Part shown: in pieces, positions 9,361 to 18,994 of the stretch
Layout of the letters: every line of letters starts with the position of its first letter
How positions within the stretch are numbered: the first letter of the stretch is position 1
Source of the DNA: Anaerococcus vaginalis ATCC 51170
GTDB taxonomy: Bacteria > Bacillota > Clostridia > Tissierellales > Peptoniphilaceae
Reading direction: 5' to 3'
NCBI RefSeq assembly: GCF_000163295.1
Contig: NZ_GG700527.1
Span: forward strand, 1,524,500-1,588,499
DNA length: 64,000 nt
Notes under the pieces: generated by a model
Told to the model about the DNA's origin: nothing
Databases searched by the model: none
Seen by the model: the letters and a program-made list of their open reading frames with translations, nothing else
Made by a program: the position numbers and the translations under genes

Positions 9361-9474
9361 GAATATCTTCTCTCATCCAGACTATAACTGTCGGTATGGG
9401 AATTTCACCCATTCAGTAAAAAACTCGCAGACTTTAACTGCCGGTTAGGAATCAAACCTCACCCTGAAGATATT
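9361..9474 (-). ncRNA. FMN riboswitch (RFN element)
   Basis: On the minus strand the conserved blocks appear in order: ATCTTCAGGGTGAGGTTTGA, CCTAACCGGCAGT, AGTCTGCGA, TGGGTGAAATTCCCATACC, GACAGTTATAGTCTGGATGA and finally GAGAGAAGATAT, which closes the P1 stem with the first block. This is the FMN aptamer. It controls ribU downstream. The expected expression platform is the GCCCTGAAAGGGC hairpin with its T run, which here is present twice around a repeat element. Confidence 0.95.
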
Positions 9475-9477
9475 TAT

Positions 9478-15969: not shown

Positions 15970-16037
15970 AATATCCTCCATTTCTAAATTTTATTATACC
16001 ATCACAATATAGTATAATGAAAAAAACGGAGGAAAAT

Positions 16038-17276
16038 ATGACAGTAAACAAAAATAAATTAGAAAATTATGCCAAACTTGCAGTTGAATTTGGTGTAAAT
16101 GTACAAAAAAATGAAGACGTTTTGATAAATTCTTCCTTGGAAGATCCTACTCTTGCAAGACTTATTGCAAAATATGCCTACGAGAAAGGTTCAAGACTTG
16201 TAAGCATTAATTGGAAGGATGAAGAGCTTACAAAATTAAAATATACCTACGAAGACCAAGAAACATTGAATGAAGTTCCTGATTATATTATAGAAAAAAA
16301 TATTTACCAACTTGAAAAACATAGGTCAAATAGGATTTCTATAATTGGCGATGACCCAGATTTGTTAAAAGATTTGGACCAAAAAAAGATAGCCGAAGCG
16401 GTCAGAGAAAATTCTTTAAAATTAAAAGATTTTGTAAAATATACAATGAACGATATGGTTTCATGGCTTGTAATTGCATATCCAACCAAAAAATGGGCAA
16501 AGAAAATTTTCCCAGACCTTGATGAAGAAAAGGCAGTAGACAAATTATGGGAAGTAATTTTTGACGTAAGTCGTGTTGATGAAGATTGGGGAAAAACCAA
16601 GAAAAATTGGAACGACCATGTTTCTTTATTGAATGAAAAAGCAGAATTTTTAAATTCTCACCAATTTGATGAAGTTCATTACTCATCAAAAAACGGAACC
16701 GATTTGAGAGTAAAATTGCCAAAAAATCACATTTGGATGTCAGCTTCATCAAAAAATGAAAAAGGCGATTTATTTTTGCCAAATATTCCAACAGAAGAAG
16801 TTTTCACTTCCCCTCAATTTGACGGAGTTGATGGAAGACTCGTTGCTGTAAAACCACTCGTTTATAATGGGGTTATAATAAATAATTTTGAATTTACATT
16901 TGAAAATGGAAAAGTTGTAGATTTTAAAGCGGAAGAAGGCTACGATACATTAAAAGAAATGTTAGAATCAGACGAAAATGCAAAATATTTAGGAGAAATT
17001 GCCCTAGTTCCATACGAATCACCAATTTCAAAATCAAATATTTTATTTTTTAACACCCTTTTTGACGAAAACGCATCCTGCCACTTCGCCCTTGGAAAAG
17101 CCTACCCAACAACAGTAAAAGGTGGAACAGAAGTTGATGATAAAGATCTTCACAAAATAGGCTTAAATGATTCTCTAATCCATGAAGATTTTATGGTAGG
17201 AGCAAAGGATTTAAATATAAAAGCCTACAAAGACGGGGAAGAATTTGACGTATTTGTTGATGGAAATTGGGCGTAA
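16038..17276 (+). CDS. M29 family metallo-aminopeptidase (AmpS/thermophilic type)
   Basis: 412 residues from the ATG at 16038, with CGGAGG six bases upstream; the seven codons before it are likely not translated. N-terminal ENYAKLAVEFGVNVQKNEDVLI is typical of the family. The C-terminal half contains the two-metal site regions: IPTEEVFTSP, LGEIALVPYESP, NTLFDENASCHFALGKAY and IHEDFMVG, each with the expected Glu, His or Asp ligands. It removes N-terminal residues from peptides and complements the divergently encoded PepF. Confidence 0.94.
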   Translation: MTVNKNKLENYAKLAVEFGVNVQKNEDVLINSSLEDPTLARLIAKYAYEKGSRLVSINWKDEELTKLKYTYEDQETLNEVPDYIIEKNIYQLEKHRSNRISIIGDDPDLLKDLDQKKIAEAVRENSLKLKDFVKYTMNDMVSWLVIAYPTKKWAKKIFPDLDEEKAVDKLWEVIFDVSRVDEDWGKTKKNWNDHVSLLNEKAEFLNSHQFDEVHYSSKNGTDLRVKLPKNHIWMSASSKNEKGDLFLPNIPTEEVFTSPQFDGVDGRLVAVKPLVYNGVIINNFEFTFENGKVVDFKAEEGYDTLKEMLESDENAKYLGEIALVPYESPISKSNILFFNTLFDENASCHFALGKAYPTTVKGGTEVDDKDLHKIGLNDSLIHEDFMVGAKDLNIKAYKDGEEFDVFVDGNWA

Positions 17277-17457: not shown

Positions 17458-17556
17458 TTGAAAATAAAATAAAAAGATGTAAAATAATATTAAACATGGA
17501 GTCGAATATACCATGACCAATTAAAAAGACAGGAGTGACGGCTCCTGTCTTTTTAT
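17458..17556 (+). ncRNA. Antisense antitoxin RNA of type I module 1
   Basis: Promoter TTGAAA (17458-17463), 16-base spacer, TAAAAT (17480-17485). Expected start near 17492 and end at the terminator GACAGGAG/CTCCTGTC (17528-17549 plus T run), giving an RNA of about 63 nt, close to the RNA II antitoxin of the pAD1 par system. It contains GAGTCGAAT (17499-17507) and CCATGACC (17511-17518), which repeat the toxin start region GAGTCGAAT (17643-17651) and CCATAACC (17656-17663) in direct orientation. Because the toxin mRNA is read from the other strand, this makes the RNA complementary to the toxin translation start, in addition to the shared terminator. Confidence 0.75.
17523..17554. terminator. 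Bidirectional terminator shared by toxin and antitoxin RNA, module 1
   Basis: AAAAAGACAGGAG / CTCCTGTCTTTTT with a six-base loop. Five A on one side and five T on the other allow termination from both directions, so the two convergent RNAs share this complementary segment. Confidence 0.9.
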
Positions 17557-17563
17557 GTGCTAA

Positions 17564-17659
17564 TTATCGTCTTTTAATATACCTATCTAGCCGCTTGCTG
17601 ATATAATTTGCTATTATACCAGCTACGATAGATATAATCATAGAGTCGAATTTTTCCAT
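17564..17659 (-). CDS. Fst-like type I toxin peptide, module 1
   Basis: 31 residues beginning MEKFDSMIIS, with a hydrophobic helix of about 15 residues (IISIVAGIIANYI) and a positively charged tail SKRLDRYIKRR. This is the plan of Fst/Ldr-family membrane toxins. The SD GGGAGGTGAGG stands directly before the ATG and is partly inside a hairpin (CCCAAACTG/CAGTTGGG, 17670-17690), as in Fst mRNA, where such a stem limits translation. An extended -10 TGATATAAT (TATAAT at 17706-17711, minus strand) lies at the expected distance upstream. The mRNA converges with its antisense RNA at a bidirectional terminator (17523-17554). Confidence 0.82.
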   Translation of the reverse strand: MEKFDSMIISIVAGIIANYISKRLDRYIKRR

Positions 17660-17739
17660 AACCTCACCTCCCAACTGTTACCAGTTTGGGTACGATAACA
17701 TTTTTATTATATCATTTTAAAAAATCTTAAACTATTAAA

Positions 17740-17838
17740 TTGAAAATATTATAAAAACTTATATAATAATATTGAGCATGGTACCGAGTTATATCCATGA
17801 CCAAACAAAAAGACAGGAGTGGCTGCTCCTGTCTTTTT
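17740..17838 (+). ncRNA. Antisense antitoxin RNA of type I module 2
   Basis: Promoter TTGAAA (17740-17745), 16-base spacer, TATAAT (17762-17767); same geometry as module 1. Expected RNA about 17774-17838. It carries GGTACCGA (17780-17787) and CCATGACC (17795-17802), matching the module 2 toxin start GGTACCGA (17924-17931) and CCATAACC (17938-17945), and not the module 1 version GAGTCGAAT. The antisense RNA and its own toxin have therefore changed together. Confidence 0.75.
17812..17838. terminator. Bidirectional terminator shared by toxin and antitoxin RNA, module 2
   Basis: GACAGGAG (17812-17819) pairs with CTCCTGTC (17826-17833), flanked by A and T runs. Same stem as module 1 with a different loop. 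Confidence 0.9.
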
Positions 17839-17842
17839 TGTG

Positions 17843-17941
17843 CTAATTATCGTTTTTTATATAGCTGTCTAGCCACTTGATAATATAATGAGCTATTACA
17901 TTACCTGCGACAGATATTAAAATGGTACCGAATTTTTCCAT
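17843..17941 (-). CDS. Fst-like type I toxin peptide, module 2
   Basis: 32 residues starting MEKFGTILIS, with a hydrophobic stretch ILISVAGNVIAHYII and a tail KWLDSYIKNDN that is less basic than module 1. It shares MEKF, the AG..IA.YI.K.LD.YIK pattern, the SD, the 5' hairpin (17952-17972) and the extended -10 (TATAAT at 17988-17993, minus strand) with module 1, so the two arose by tandem duplication. The ends differ because the module 2 frame runs three bases further to a TAG stop. Confidence 0.8.
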   Translation of the reverse strand: MEKFGTILISVAGNVIAHYIIKWLDSYIKNDN

Positions 17942-18042
17942 AACCTCACCTCCCAACTGTTACCAGTTTGGGTACGATAACATCTTTATTATATCATTTT
18001 GTTTATTATTTTATTTTAAATTCTAAGCAAAAACCCTAAAAC

Positions 18043-18334: not shown

Positions 18335-18994
18335 ATGCTCAGAAAATTTCTGAGAAGTTTAGAAGTTACAAAAAAAGAATTTTTGATTATTTCCCTTGGT
18401 TGTGCAATTATGTCCTTTGGAGTAATAAATATCCACGAACAAGCACAAATAACTGAAGGTGGAGTTTTGGGACTTGGCTTATTTTTAAAAAAAGCCTTTA
18501 ATATGAATCTTGCCTACACCACACCTATTTTGGATGCCTTATGTTATGCCCTTGGCTTTTCAATGCTTGGAAGAATATTTTTAAAAAAATCAATTGTAGC
18601 AACAATAATGTTTGCAGTTTTTTATTGGATTTTTGATTTTATTGGACCAGTGATTCCAAGTCTTTACGATATGCCCTTAATGGCAGCAATATTTGGTGGA
18701 ATATTTATAGGATGTGGCTGTGGAATAGCAGTTACAGCCGGAGGATGTGCAGGAGGCGATGACGCCTTGGCAATGACAATTTCCAAAAAAACAAAATGGC
18801 CAATATCAAGAGCCTACTTGTTTACAGATTACGTAGTTCTTGCCCTTTCTTTAATATACATCCCAATGAACCACCTAATATATTCATTTTTAACAACAAT
18901 TATCTCATCATTTTTGATAGGACAATTCGAATTAAAAATGGAAATACCAGCCTGGCAAGTATGCCAAGGAAATTTAAATCATGCAAAAGGTTAA
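18335..18994 (+). CDS. YitT family membrane protein
   Basis: 219 residues, five to six transmembrane segments. N-terminal region FGVINIHEQAQITEGGVLGLGLF and the glycine-rich GIFIGCGCGIAVTAGGCAGGDDALA match the YitT (DUF161-type) pattern of GG and GGxD motifs. Usual YitT proteins of about 280 residues carry a C-terminal cytosolic domain, which is missing here, so this is the short membrane-only form. Function unknown; transport has been suggested for the family. AGGAG lies ten bases upstream of the start, within the hairpin CTAATC/GATTAG that follows the structured RNA and could hide the ribosome binding site. Confidence 0.8.
   Translation: MLRKFLRSLEVTKKEFLIISLGCAIMSFGVINIHEQAQITEGGVLGLGLFLKKAFNMNLAYTTPILDALCYALGFSMLGRIFLKKSIVATIMFAVFYWIFDFIGPVIPSLYDMPLMAAIFGGIFIGCGCGIAVTAGGCAGGDDALAMTISKKTKWPISRAYLFTDYVVLALSLIYIPMNHLIYSFLTTIISSFLIGQFELKMEIPAWQVCQGNLNHAKG

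Follow-up and report, generated by a model that had tools for sequence, protein, structure and literature searches.

Positions 17458–18003 of a 64,000-nucleotide (nt) stretch of Anaerococcus vaginalis ATCC 51170 DNA (contig NZ_GG700527.1, from a 1.89 Mb assembly; this stretch is called the window, and all coordinates are window positions unless a contig or locus is named) hold two tandem convergent modules, which are probably chromosomal type I toxin-antitoxin systems that work like par/Fst and are each mainly silenced by their own antisense RNA. In each module, a minus-strand gene for a hydrophobic peptide and a plus-strand gene for an antisense RNA converge on a bidirectional terminator with a perfect stem (Table 1). 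Comparison among related sequences shows the convergent genes, the common terminator, a compensated helix between the mRNA 5′ and 3′ ends, and a bipartite antisense/mRNA complementarity, of which the constant part lies over the start codon and the variable part over about codons 3–8. A 5′ hairpin that sequesters the Shine-Dalgarno (SD) sequence and an antisense hairpin that presents the variable recognition box in its loop are predicted. A first-pass annotation of the window had described the pair; the observation itself is confirmed and its interpretation is partly supported, and the multi-copy family reported here was not visible from the window alone.

The two modules are made up of direct repeats (n = 2) of ~282 bp each. 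The two genes annotated for hydrophobic peptides of 31 and 32 residues are borne out by the sequence, the repeat analysis and the open reading frames (ORFs). Both coding sequences (CDSs) begin with an ATG that follows GGGAGGTGAGG, and the extended −10 TGATATAAT stands 6 bases ahead of GTTATC in both genes, where we infer the mRNA 5′ ends to lie. The first 53 nt of the two inferred mRNAs are identical (up to codon 4 plus one base), and divergence begins inside the recognition box. The inferred ends give mRNAs of 180 and 179 nt and antisense RNAs of 64 and 66 nt, in agreement with the annotated sizes of about 180 nt (minus strand) and about 63 and 65 nt (plus strand). The sequence likewise agrees with the annotated SD and extended −10 of each toxin gene and with antisense promoters of matching geometry (TTGAAA-16), and each module has its own bidirectional terminator with a 13-bp perfect stem; these stems were seen by sequence reading and repeat analysis, and a simple terminator scan returned only the module 1 terminator in shortened form. 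The annotation had located the feature correctly and closed it too early, at 17972 instead of about 18003. It had also described the modules as alike outside the boxes, which holds for the 53 nt at the mRNA 5′ end and fails at the six-base terminator loops (on the toxin strand, CCGTCA in module 1 and CAGCCA in module 2), a difference it had missed.

Related modules are common in the genus. A profile built from the two window peptides matched at E ≤ 1 in 26 of 31 Anaerococcus genomes, the weakest matches being probably due to chance, and a 44-sequence profile matched at E ≤ 0.001 in 28 of 130 family genomes and 6 of 39 genera; 22 of these 28 genomes are among the 31 of Anaerococcus, and the remaining six include doubtful ones. 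A pattern for the 5′ untranslated region (UTR), built from these loci, gave 35 matches in 19 of the 31 genomes and none in a reversed control. The first detection script missed modules, and matches were afterwards read individually. The collected set comprises 82 modules from 25 Peptoniphilaceae genomes (22 Anaerococcus and 3 from other genera), among which the boxes co-vary. At least two modules were collected from 19 genomes, 18 of them Anaerococcus, with a maximum of seven (G007). The annotation regarded duplication of the pair as unusual for the lineage, which is not supported, as multiple modules occur in 18 of the 31 Anaerococcus genomes searched (18 of the 22 that contribute to the set). 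Left out of the set were G114 and G025, for which the script found no terminator; G015:1564744 and G007:1049393, which are disrupted or lack a terminator; two-sequence-profile matches at E > 0.01 unsupported by other searches; and a disrupted G010 copy (L186) that was found later. In the consensus of 44 peptides the K and L of a KWLD motif are invariant and its W and D nearly so.

Two observations on individual members were made during this survey. A dispersed repeat of ~60 nt (GCAAGCCCGTCYGGCT...GACCCTCCAYGGAGTGGTCAAGCGAAGCTTGA) sits at the KWLD codons, or immediately behind them, in five toxin genes, L184 (G005), L186 (G010), L187 and L188 (both G015) and L191 (G023); its pattern has 9 matches in 6 of the 31 genomes, 5 of them in toxin genes, and two further copies (L185 and L190) come, as judged by eye, after 5S rRNA-like sequence. 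The window's own genome also holds a third module at C6:1740751-1740831 (L064), in which ATA replaces the TTG start of relatives (GGGGGTGATTATCATAGATTATG). This ATA is identical in four genomes (the window's own, G028, G003 and G002), and the module may use a non-standard start codon or an in-frame GTG that touches the SD.

One line of evidence for dedicated silencing is the match between each toxin start region and its own antisense RNA. The annotated identity of each antisense box with its own toxin start region was recovered as boxes of 9 nt in module 1 and 8 nt in module 2. Across the collected modules, the word shared by start region and cognate antisense RNA had a median of 11.5 nt (range 6–18) and reached at least 8 nt in 81 of 82 modules, compared with a median of 6 nt for non-cognate pairs and for shuffled antisense sequences, of which 10.5% reached 8 nt. 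Chance repeats are ruled out by these comparisons. In the 19 genomes with at least two modules, 74 of 76 toxins had their cognate antisense RNA as best partner and 75 of 76 antisense RNAs had their cognate toxin as best target, against 19 expected by chance in either direction, with orthologues in different genomes entered separately. These counts uphold the earlier suggestion that toxin box and antisense box changed together. Mean predicted binding was −36.9 kcal/mol for cognate and −18.2 kcal/mol for non-cognate pairs. One exception, in G006, was a near tie (−32.2 versus −32.4 kcal/mol). In the other, G005_C2_348198, the toxin start fits the antisense RNAs of two neighbours (−40.1 and −30.7 kcal/mol) better than its own (−23.8 kcal/mol), and the toxin gene carries an insert. 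The sole clear mismatch is thus an altered toxin, which fits a toxin function, but this is a single case, and other insert-bearing toxins still have matched boxes.

For the window modules themselves, cognate pairing is predicted to be bipartite, with 8–9 bp spanning the start codon and 13 bp at the box, separated by a small internal loop, whereas in non-cognate pairing the start-codon part stays intact and the box part is broken up. Predicted cofold binding was −21.8 and −27.5 kcal/mol for the cognate pairs versus −12.8 and −10.6 kcal/mol for the cross pairs, and plain duplex energies over a longer stretch were −34.7 and −43.0 versus −26.0 and −27.6 kcal/mol, in a comparison from which the second match of one frameshifted module, G002_C41_45633, had been dropped. 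Cross binding is weaker but not nil, so the sister antisense RNAs may cross-protect in the window.

A second line of evidence is a long-range helix that the annotation had missed, in which GTTATCGT, at the mRNA 5′ end, has its complement in ACGATAAT, located at the stop codon. Among 43 distinct anchored rows, 80.9% of cells were paired compared with 71.8% after shuffling, double-change cells numbered 46 compared with 18.4, and the covariation score was 0.365 compared with 0.239, with 0 of 500 shuffles as high in each case, although the relatedness of the rows makes this test overstate the signal. Slid versions of the helix scored lower on all five measures used. The helix was recounted with other anchors because the −10 finder had misplaced some 5′ ends; 74 of the 82 modules could be anchored and 8 were skipped. 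Of the 74, 60 paired at 7 or more of 9 positions, and several of the 14 below this level fell short since the anchor had picked the wrong TAG. We accept the helix because its pair types differ between module groups (for example GTTACTATC with GATAGTAAC, GTTATCATC with GATGATAAC); judged by this covariation, it is the sequestered 5′ end as in par RNA I. In toxin 1 a one-base shift (17563–17580) gives a C-terminus of KRR, not NDN, and leaves the RNA element ACGATAATTAG intact.

The local folds are predictions. Pairing around the SD exceeded 0.5 in 79 of 82 modules in folding run without a shuffle control, and the 5′ pieces of the window modules had z-scores of −2.60 (module 1; 1 of 200 shuffles as stable) and −1.76 (module 2; 11 of 200). 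Among 80 antisense RNAs analyzed, the 31 that form a class with a CATG-closed loop all carry the box inside that loop; a general rule that every antisense RNA presents its box in a loop is ruled out, and in many RNAs outside this class the box appears by eye to lie in a largely unpaired 5′ tail. The two modules omitted here had boxes shorter than 7 nt: G005_C2_348198, the true mismatch, and G023_C1_718410, whose start was misplaced and which had shown a 13-nt match in an earlier scan.

The par RNAs are described as convergent, with a bidirectional terminator, direct repeats at the start region, an SD-sequestering 5′ stem-loop and a sequestered mRNA 5′ end (PMC7472228). The annotated par/Fst plan of convergent RNAs, direct repeats and a common terminator is found here, as convergent promoters read from the sequence, one bidirectional terminator, and direct repeats over the toxin start that both RNAs read. 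The SD-sequestering stem-loop is predicted, and the sequestration of the mRNA 5′ end by long-range pairing is indicated by compensatory changes. The inferred transcripts may be compared with S. mutans fst-Sm/srSm, reported with an antisense RNA of about 70 nt and an mRNA of 200 nt (PMC3543317).

In the mechanism we favor, the mRNA would be made in a silent fold, first contact with the antisense RNA would occur through the terminator loop and the box, and pairing would then spread across the start codon and stop translation of a membrane-disturbing peptide. The box, perhaps together with the terminator loop, would act as a barcode, and tandem units could be gained or lost intact, since the interval between the two boxes does not include the long identical stretch.

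Several results weigh against this reading or restrict it. Strict membership of the Fst family, as the annotated name Fst-like might imply, was not recovered: Pfam PF13955 (Fst_toxin) had no match in the window's own genome (and none over the cut-off in 14 control genomes, leaving this search without a positive control), and NCBIfam NF033608 was over its cut-off in 0 of 31 genus genomes and in 1 of 14 controls. The promoter scan was overall at chance level (9 sites versus 6.6 ± 3.0 in shuffles), and the antisense promoters appear credible by their position and their conservation in relatives. For the 5′–3′ helix, two of the five measures are less clear: pairs with a double change number 8, versus 6.0 after shuffling (equalled or exceeded in 56 of 500 shuffles), and further pair types number 21, versus 17.5 (15 of 500). 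The shuffle test is inflated by related rows, and a plain count gives 7.91 paired positions of 9 for cognate ends, compared with 7.08 for non-cognate ends. Taken over all antisense RNAs, only 51 of 80 have a box that is more open than their remaining sequence. Cross pairs in the window retain the start-codon pairing, and their duplex energies equal those of the weakest cognate pairs elsewhere. The disrupted toxin start of G005_C2_348198 fits the antisense RNA of a co-resident module, G005_C2_346070, at −40.1 kcal/mol, and, had this module not been dropped from the insulation test below, it would have counted against insulation. Within that test, the mean separation at identity ≥0.70 (n = 24) was 15.22 versus 14.37 kcal/mol (p = 0.16), and one intact co-resident G007 pair of lower identity is separated by merely 5 kcal/mol. 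The terminator loops are identical in 1 of 117 co-resident pairs and in 36 of 2439 other pairs, about the same low frequency. Finally, a C. difficile antitoxin with at least three mismatches is reported to still protect (PMC7699646).

Fst carries a PXXXG motif in its hydrophobic domain (PMC7472228), and the consensus of the 44 peptides has no conserved P. NF033608 was touched weakly by 2 of the 44 peptides (best E 0.0023). The Rfam fstAT model (RF01797, gathering score 72 bits) gave a genome best of 21.9 bits and nothing at the locus, with 0 of 14 control genomes over the cut-off and hence no positive control; 11 weak Rfam matches within the locus lie far under their thresholds. The C. difficile type I toxin model NF047374 (cut-off 60 bits) was not reached, with weak matches to 6 of 44 peptides (best E 0.011). 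For the two window peptides Pfam returned nothing and NCBIfam a single irrelevant match, and for the 44 peptides PADLOC gave no match and a PDB sequence search nothing below E 1. A search for similar DNA in plasmids and phages gave no match. Candidates set aside as typical of short hydrophobic peptides were, besides the weak NF033608 and NF047374 matches, Pfam DUF2158 (weak, 11 of 44 peptides, best E 0.0014), PHROGs phrog_33013 (2 of 44, best E 0.00022) and phrog_738 (14 of 44, best E 0.0019), and the holin phrog_6918 (14 of 44, best E 0.031). The modules are par-type by plan and covariation and are not recognized as Fst or fstAT by sequence. We therefore use the wording "works like par/Fst", which implies no homology of the peptide.

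Selection for insulation between sister modules, which the annotation had suggested, receives modest support only (backbone-matched p ~0.01 from 12 non-independent pairs). We compared 72 of the 82 modules (intact and within the genus, after five with disrupted toxins and five from outside were dropped), which form 2556 pairs, 117 of them co-resident. None of 12 co-resident pairs with backbone identity ≥0.75 was separated by <8 kcal/mol, compared with 2.99 in matched permutations (p = 0.013), their mean separation was 14.88 versus 12.14 kcal/mol (p = 0.015), and at identity ≥0.70 weakly separated pairs numbered 0 versus 3.42 (p = 0.009); all these p values are optimistic, as pairs share ancestry and the thresholds for energy and identity were picked by the analyst. 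Above 0.90 identity there were no co-resident pairs and 26 other pairs, which could be explained by the rarity of recent duplicates alone. An earlier pair comparison on 64 modules gave the same pattern. A bolder and rather doubtful reading is that Anaerococcus keeps a set of type I modules insulated from one another (seven at most in any genome of the collection), with the barcode (the box, perhaps with the terminator loop) under diversifying selection. Tandem units would recombine through the identical 5′ regions, whole matched units being gained or lost in this way, and loop inversion would switch the kissing specificity of both RNAs at once.

A somewhat doubtful alternative is that these are type I modules without meaningful insulation, whose boxes drift and in which the constant pairing at start codon and terminator lets sister antisense RNAs protect against each other's toxins; the peptide N-terminus would then be weakly constrained, and compensatory change would just maintain self-silencing. 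The constant 8–9 bp over the start codon and the identical terminator stems in the window favor it, as do the p value of 0.16 for mean separation at identity ≥0.70, terminator loops that differ no more in co-resident than in other modules, and the mismatch tolerance seen in C. difficile (PMC7699646); the lack of very similar co-resident pairs may also merely reflect rare recent duplicates. It fits less well with the deficit of weakly separated close pairs and their raised mean separation, and with window cross pairs predicted to bind 9–17 kcal/mol more weakly than cognate pairs.

The history of the chromosomal site bears on how units move. The site is occupied in six genomes with varying unit content: units 1 and 2 in the window; units 1, 2 and 3 in A. 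obesiensis (G028), the closest relative among the genomes searched and classed there as the same species; unit 1 and the antisense half of unit 2 in A. jeddahensis (G004); one unit of the unit-1 type in A. senegalensis (G017); unit 2 in A. vaginalis PH9 (G029); and units 3 and 2, with unit 2 frameshifted, in G002. The 5′ flank of window unit 2 equals that of A. obesiensis unit 3 over 54 aligned bases ending just beyond the −10, which is what the gain or loss of a unit through exchange within the identical 5′ region should leave behind. Exchange there would keep the two boxes of a unit together, whereas exchange between the boxes would uncouple them. Units 1 and 2 of A. obesiensis both carry a UTR change, GTTGTC, that is absent from the window units, which suggests exchange between sisters that stopped before the box. 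In A. jeddahensis (L179, about 2735–2858) the orphan unit 2 antisense RNA keeps box and terminator and the toxin is gone, resembling the orphan orz described in E. coli (PMC11264685).

The terminator loops may be a further specificity element, by analogy with pAD1, where complex formation is reported to begin from these loops (PMC7472228). The loops of both RNAs are read from the same DNA, so that any loop change is matched automatically; as evidence of insulation the loops were rejected on the pair counts given above. The unit 2 loop (17820–17825) reads CAGCCA in the window and its reverse complement, TGGCTG, in A. obesiensis, A. vaginalis and G002. The sequence between the stem arms has probably been inverted, and our guess at the cause is template switching in this perfect stem. 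The U-turn motif of toxin terminator loops is YUNR. By eye it was not seen in the window loops CCGTCA and CAGCCA, and it is reported to be absent from some par homologues (PMC7472228).

It is improbable that the peptide is not a toxin but a small regulated membrane protein controlled by an antisense RNA, for example one that regulates a transporter or acts under stress. The occupation of one chromosomal site in six genomes would suit such a role, but unit content at that site varies, five toxin genes bear the same repeat, the sole clearly mismatched toxin has this repeat (though other such genes keep matched boxes), and the features of par persist. Functionless repeats, whether due to chance or degenerate, which very short genes, AT-rich DNA and a promoter scan at chance level might suggest, are already contradicted by conservation and covariation in other genomes and are extremely improbable.

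The Anaerococcus modules share with par/Fst (pAD1 and the chromosomal loci of Enterococcus and S. mutans) the plan, the SD stem-loop and the sequestered 5′ end. They differ in a toxin that lacks the conserved PXXXG proline and is missed by the Fst models, in an antisense RNA that Rfam fstAT does not find, in several barcoded copies per genome, and in a box set in a CATG-closed antisense loop. The zor/orz pairs of E. coli O157:H7 are likewise tandem and very similar, with antitoxins that discriminate by a short variable region and occur also as orphans (PMC3919570; PMC11264685), but their genes are divergent and pair far upstream in the 5′ UTR (PMC3919570). In C. difficile (NF047374/RCd), small hydrophobic toxins converge with specific antisense antitoxins (PMC7699646); the Anaerococcus peptides fall below the NF047374 cut-off, and the accessible part of that report mentions no direct-repeat barcode. 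Ldr/Rdl of E. coli comprises three tandem copies of a gene for a 35-amino-acid peptide with antisense RNAs, but its regulation is described as hok/sok-like and its host is Gram-negative (PMC4147584). By eye, peptides on Staphylococcus plasmids share a GVIANYIS-type core, a short 5′ hairpin before the SD, a terminator and a partial direct repeat. Plasmid records matching at E ≤ 1 numbered 58, 50 of them Staphylococcus; the two loci inspected there (L133 and L134) encode unannotated peptides of 31–34 residues, and a predicted qacG lies near L133.

The idea that sequence differences where the RNAs pair may prevent crosstalk has already been published for pAD1 versus chromosomal par, where pAD1 RNA II gives no protection against the chromosomal paralogue (PMC7472228), and for zor/orz (PMC11264685). 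The barcode principle is thus not new, and the lineage, the copy number and the covariation evidence appear to be. We found no account of type I toxin-antitoxin systems in Peptoniphilaceae, and the toxin-antitoxin literature naming Anaerococcus, as far as its text was accessible, concerned type II systems only, in a search that left most subscription journals outside. Dozens of related antisense-toxin pairs on one scaffold with different barcodes form a natural series, which allows testing how much complementarity, and where, sets silencing and insulation in par-type systems, and they represent a chromosomal type I family overlooked by the toxin and RNA models tried.

Table 1 Features of the two modules, in window coordinates.
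Feature	Position	Strand	Basis
Antisense RNA 1 promoter, TTGAAA-16-TAAAAT	17458–17485	+	Consensus match; conserved in relatives
Antisense RNA 1, ~64 nt	17492–17555	+	Predicted, inferred ends
Antisense RNA 1 box as loop of CATGG-box-CCATG hairpin	within 17492–17555	+	Predicted
Module 1 box, antisense copy, GAGTCGAAT	17499–17507	+	Sequence
Antisense RNA 1 start-codon complement, CCATGACC	17511–17518	+	Sequence
Module 1 bidirectional terminator, 13-bp stem, loop CCGTCA (toxin strand)	17523–17554	both	Sequence, repeats
Module 1 long-range helix 3′ strand, ACGATAAT, partner of mRNA 5′ end	17563–17570	−	Covariation
Toxin-like CDS 1, 31 residues, MEKFDSMIISIVAGIIANYISKRLDRYIKRR	17564–17659 (stop included)	−	ORF, profile search
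Module 1 box, toxin copy, GAGTCGAAT	17643–17651	read on +	Sequence
Toxin 1 5′ UTR, GTTATCGT 5′ end and SD-sequestering hairpin	17660–17699	−	Folding
Toxin 1 extended −10, TGATATAAT	17706–17714	−	Read from sequence; conserved in relatives
Antisense RNA 2 promoter, TTGAAA-16-TATAAT	17740–17767	+	Consensus match; conserved in relatives
Antisense RNA 2, ~66 nt	17774–17839	+	Predicted, inferred ends
Module 2 box, antisense copy, 10-nt match ATGGTACCGA	17778–17787	+	Repeats
Module 2 box core, GGTACCGA inside ATGGTACCGA	17780–17787 and 17924–17931	+	Sequence
Antisense RNA 2 start-codon complement, CCATGACC	17795–17802	+	Sequence
Module 2 bidirectional terminator, 13-bp stem, loop CAGCCA (toxin strand)	17807–17838	both	Sequence, repeats
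Toxin-like CDS 2, 32 residues, MEKFGTILISVAGNVIAHYIIKWLDSYIKNDN	17843–17941 (stop included)	−	ORF, profile search
Module 2 long-range helix 3′ strand, ACGATAAT	17846–17853	−	Covariation
Module 2 box, toxin copy, ATGGTACCGA	17922–17931	read on +	Repeats
Toxin 2 5′ UTR with SD-sequestering hairpin	17942–17981	−	Folding
Toxin 2 extended −10, TGATATAAT	17988–17996	−	Read from sequence; conserved in relatives

The modules lie between an ORF at 16017–17276 that we take, from reading it alone, to be aminopeptidase-like, and one at 18335–18994 that is, on the same footing, presumably YitT-like. A known RNA family at the locus was rejected, as the sole Rfam match in the window at gathering score is a flavin mononucleotide (FMN) riboswitch (RF00050) at 9361–9475 on the minus strand, unrelated to the toxin-like modules.

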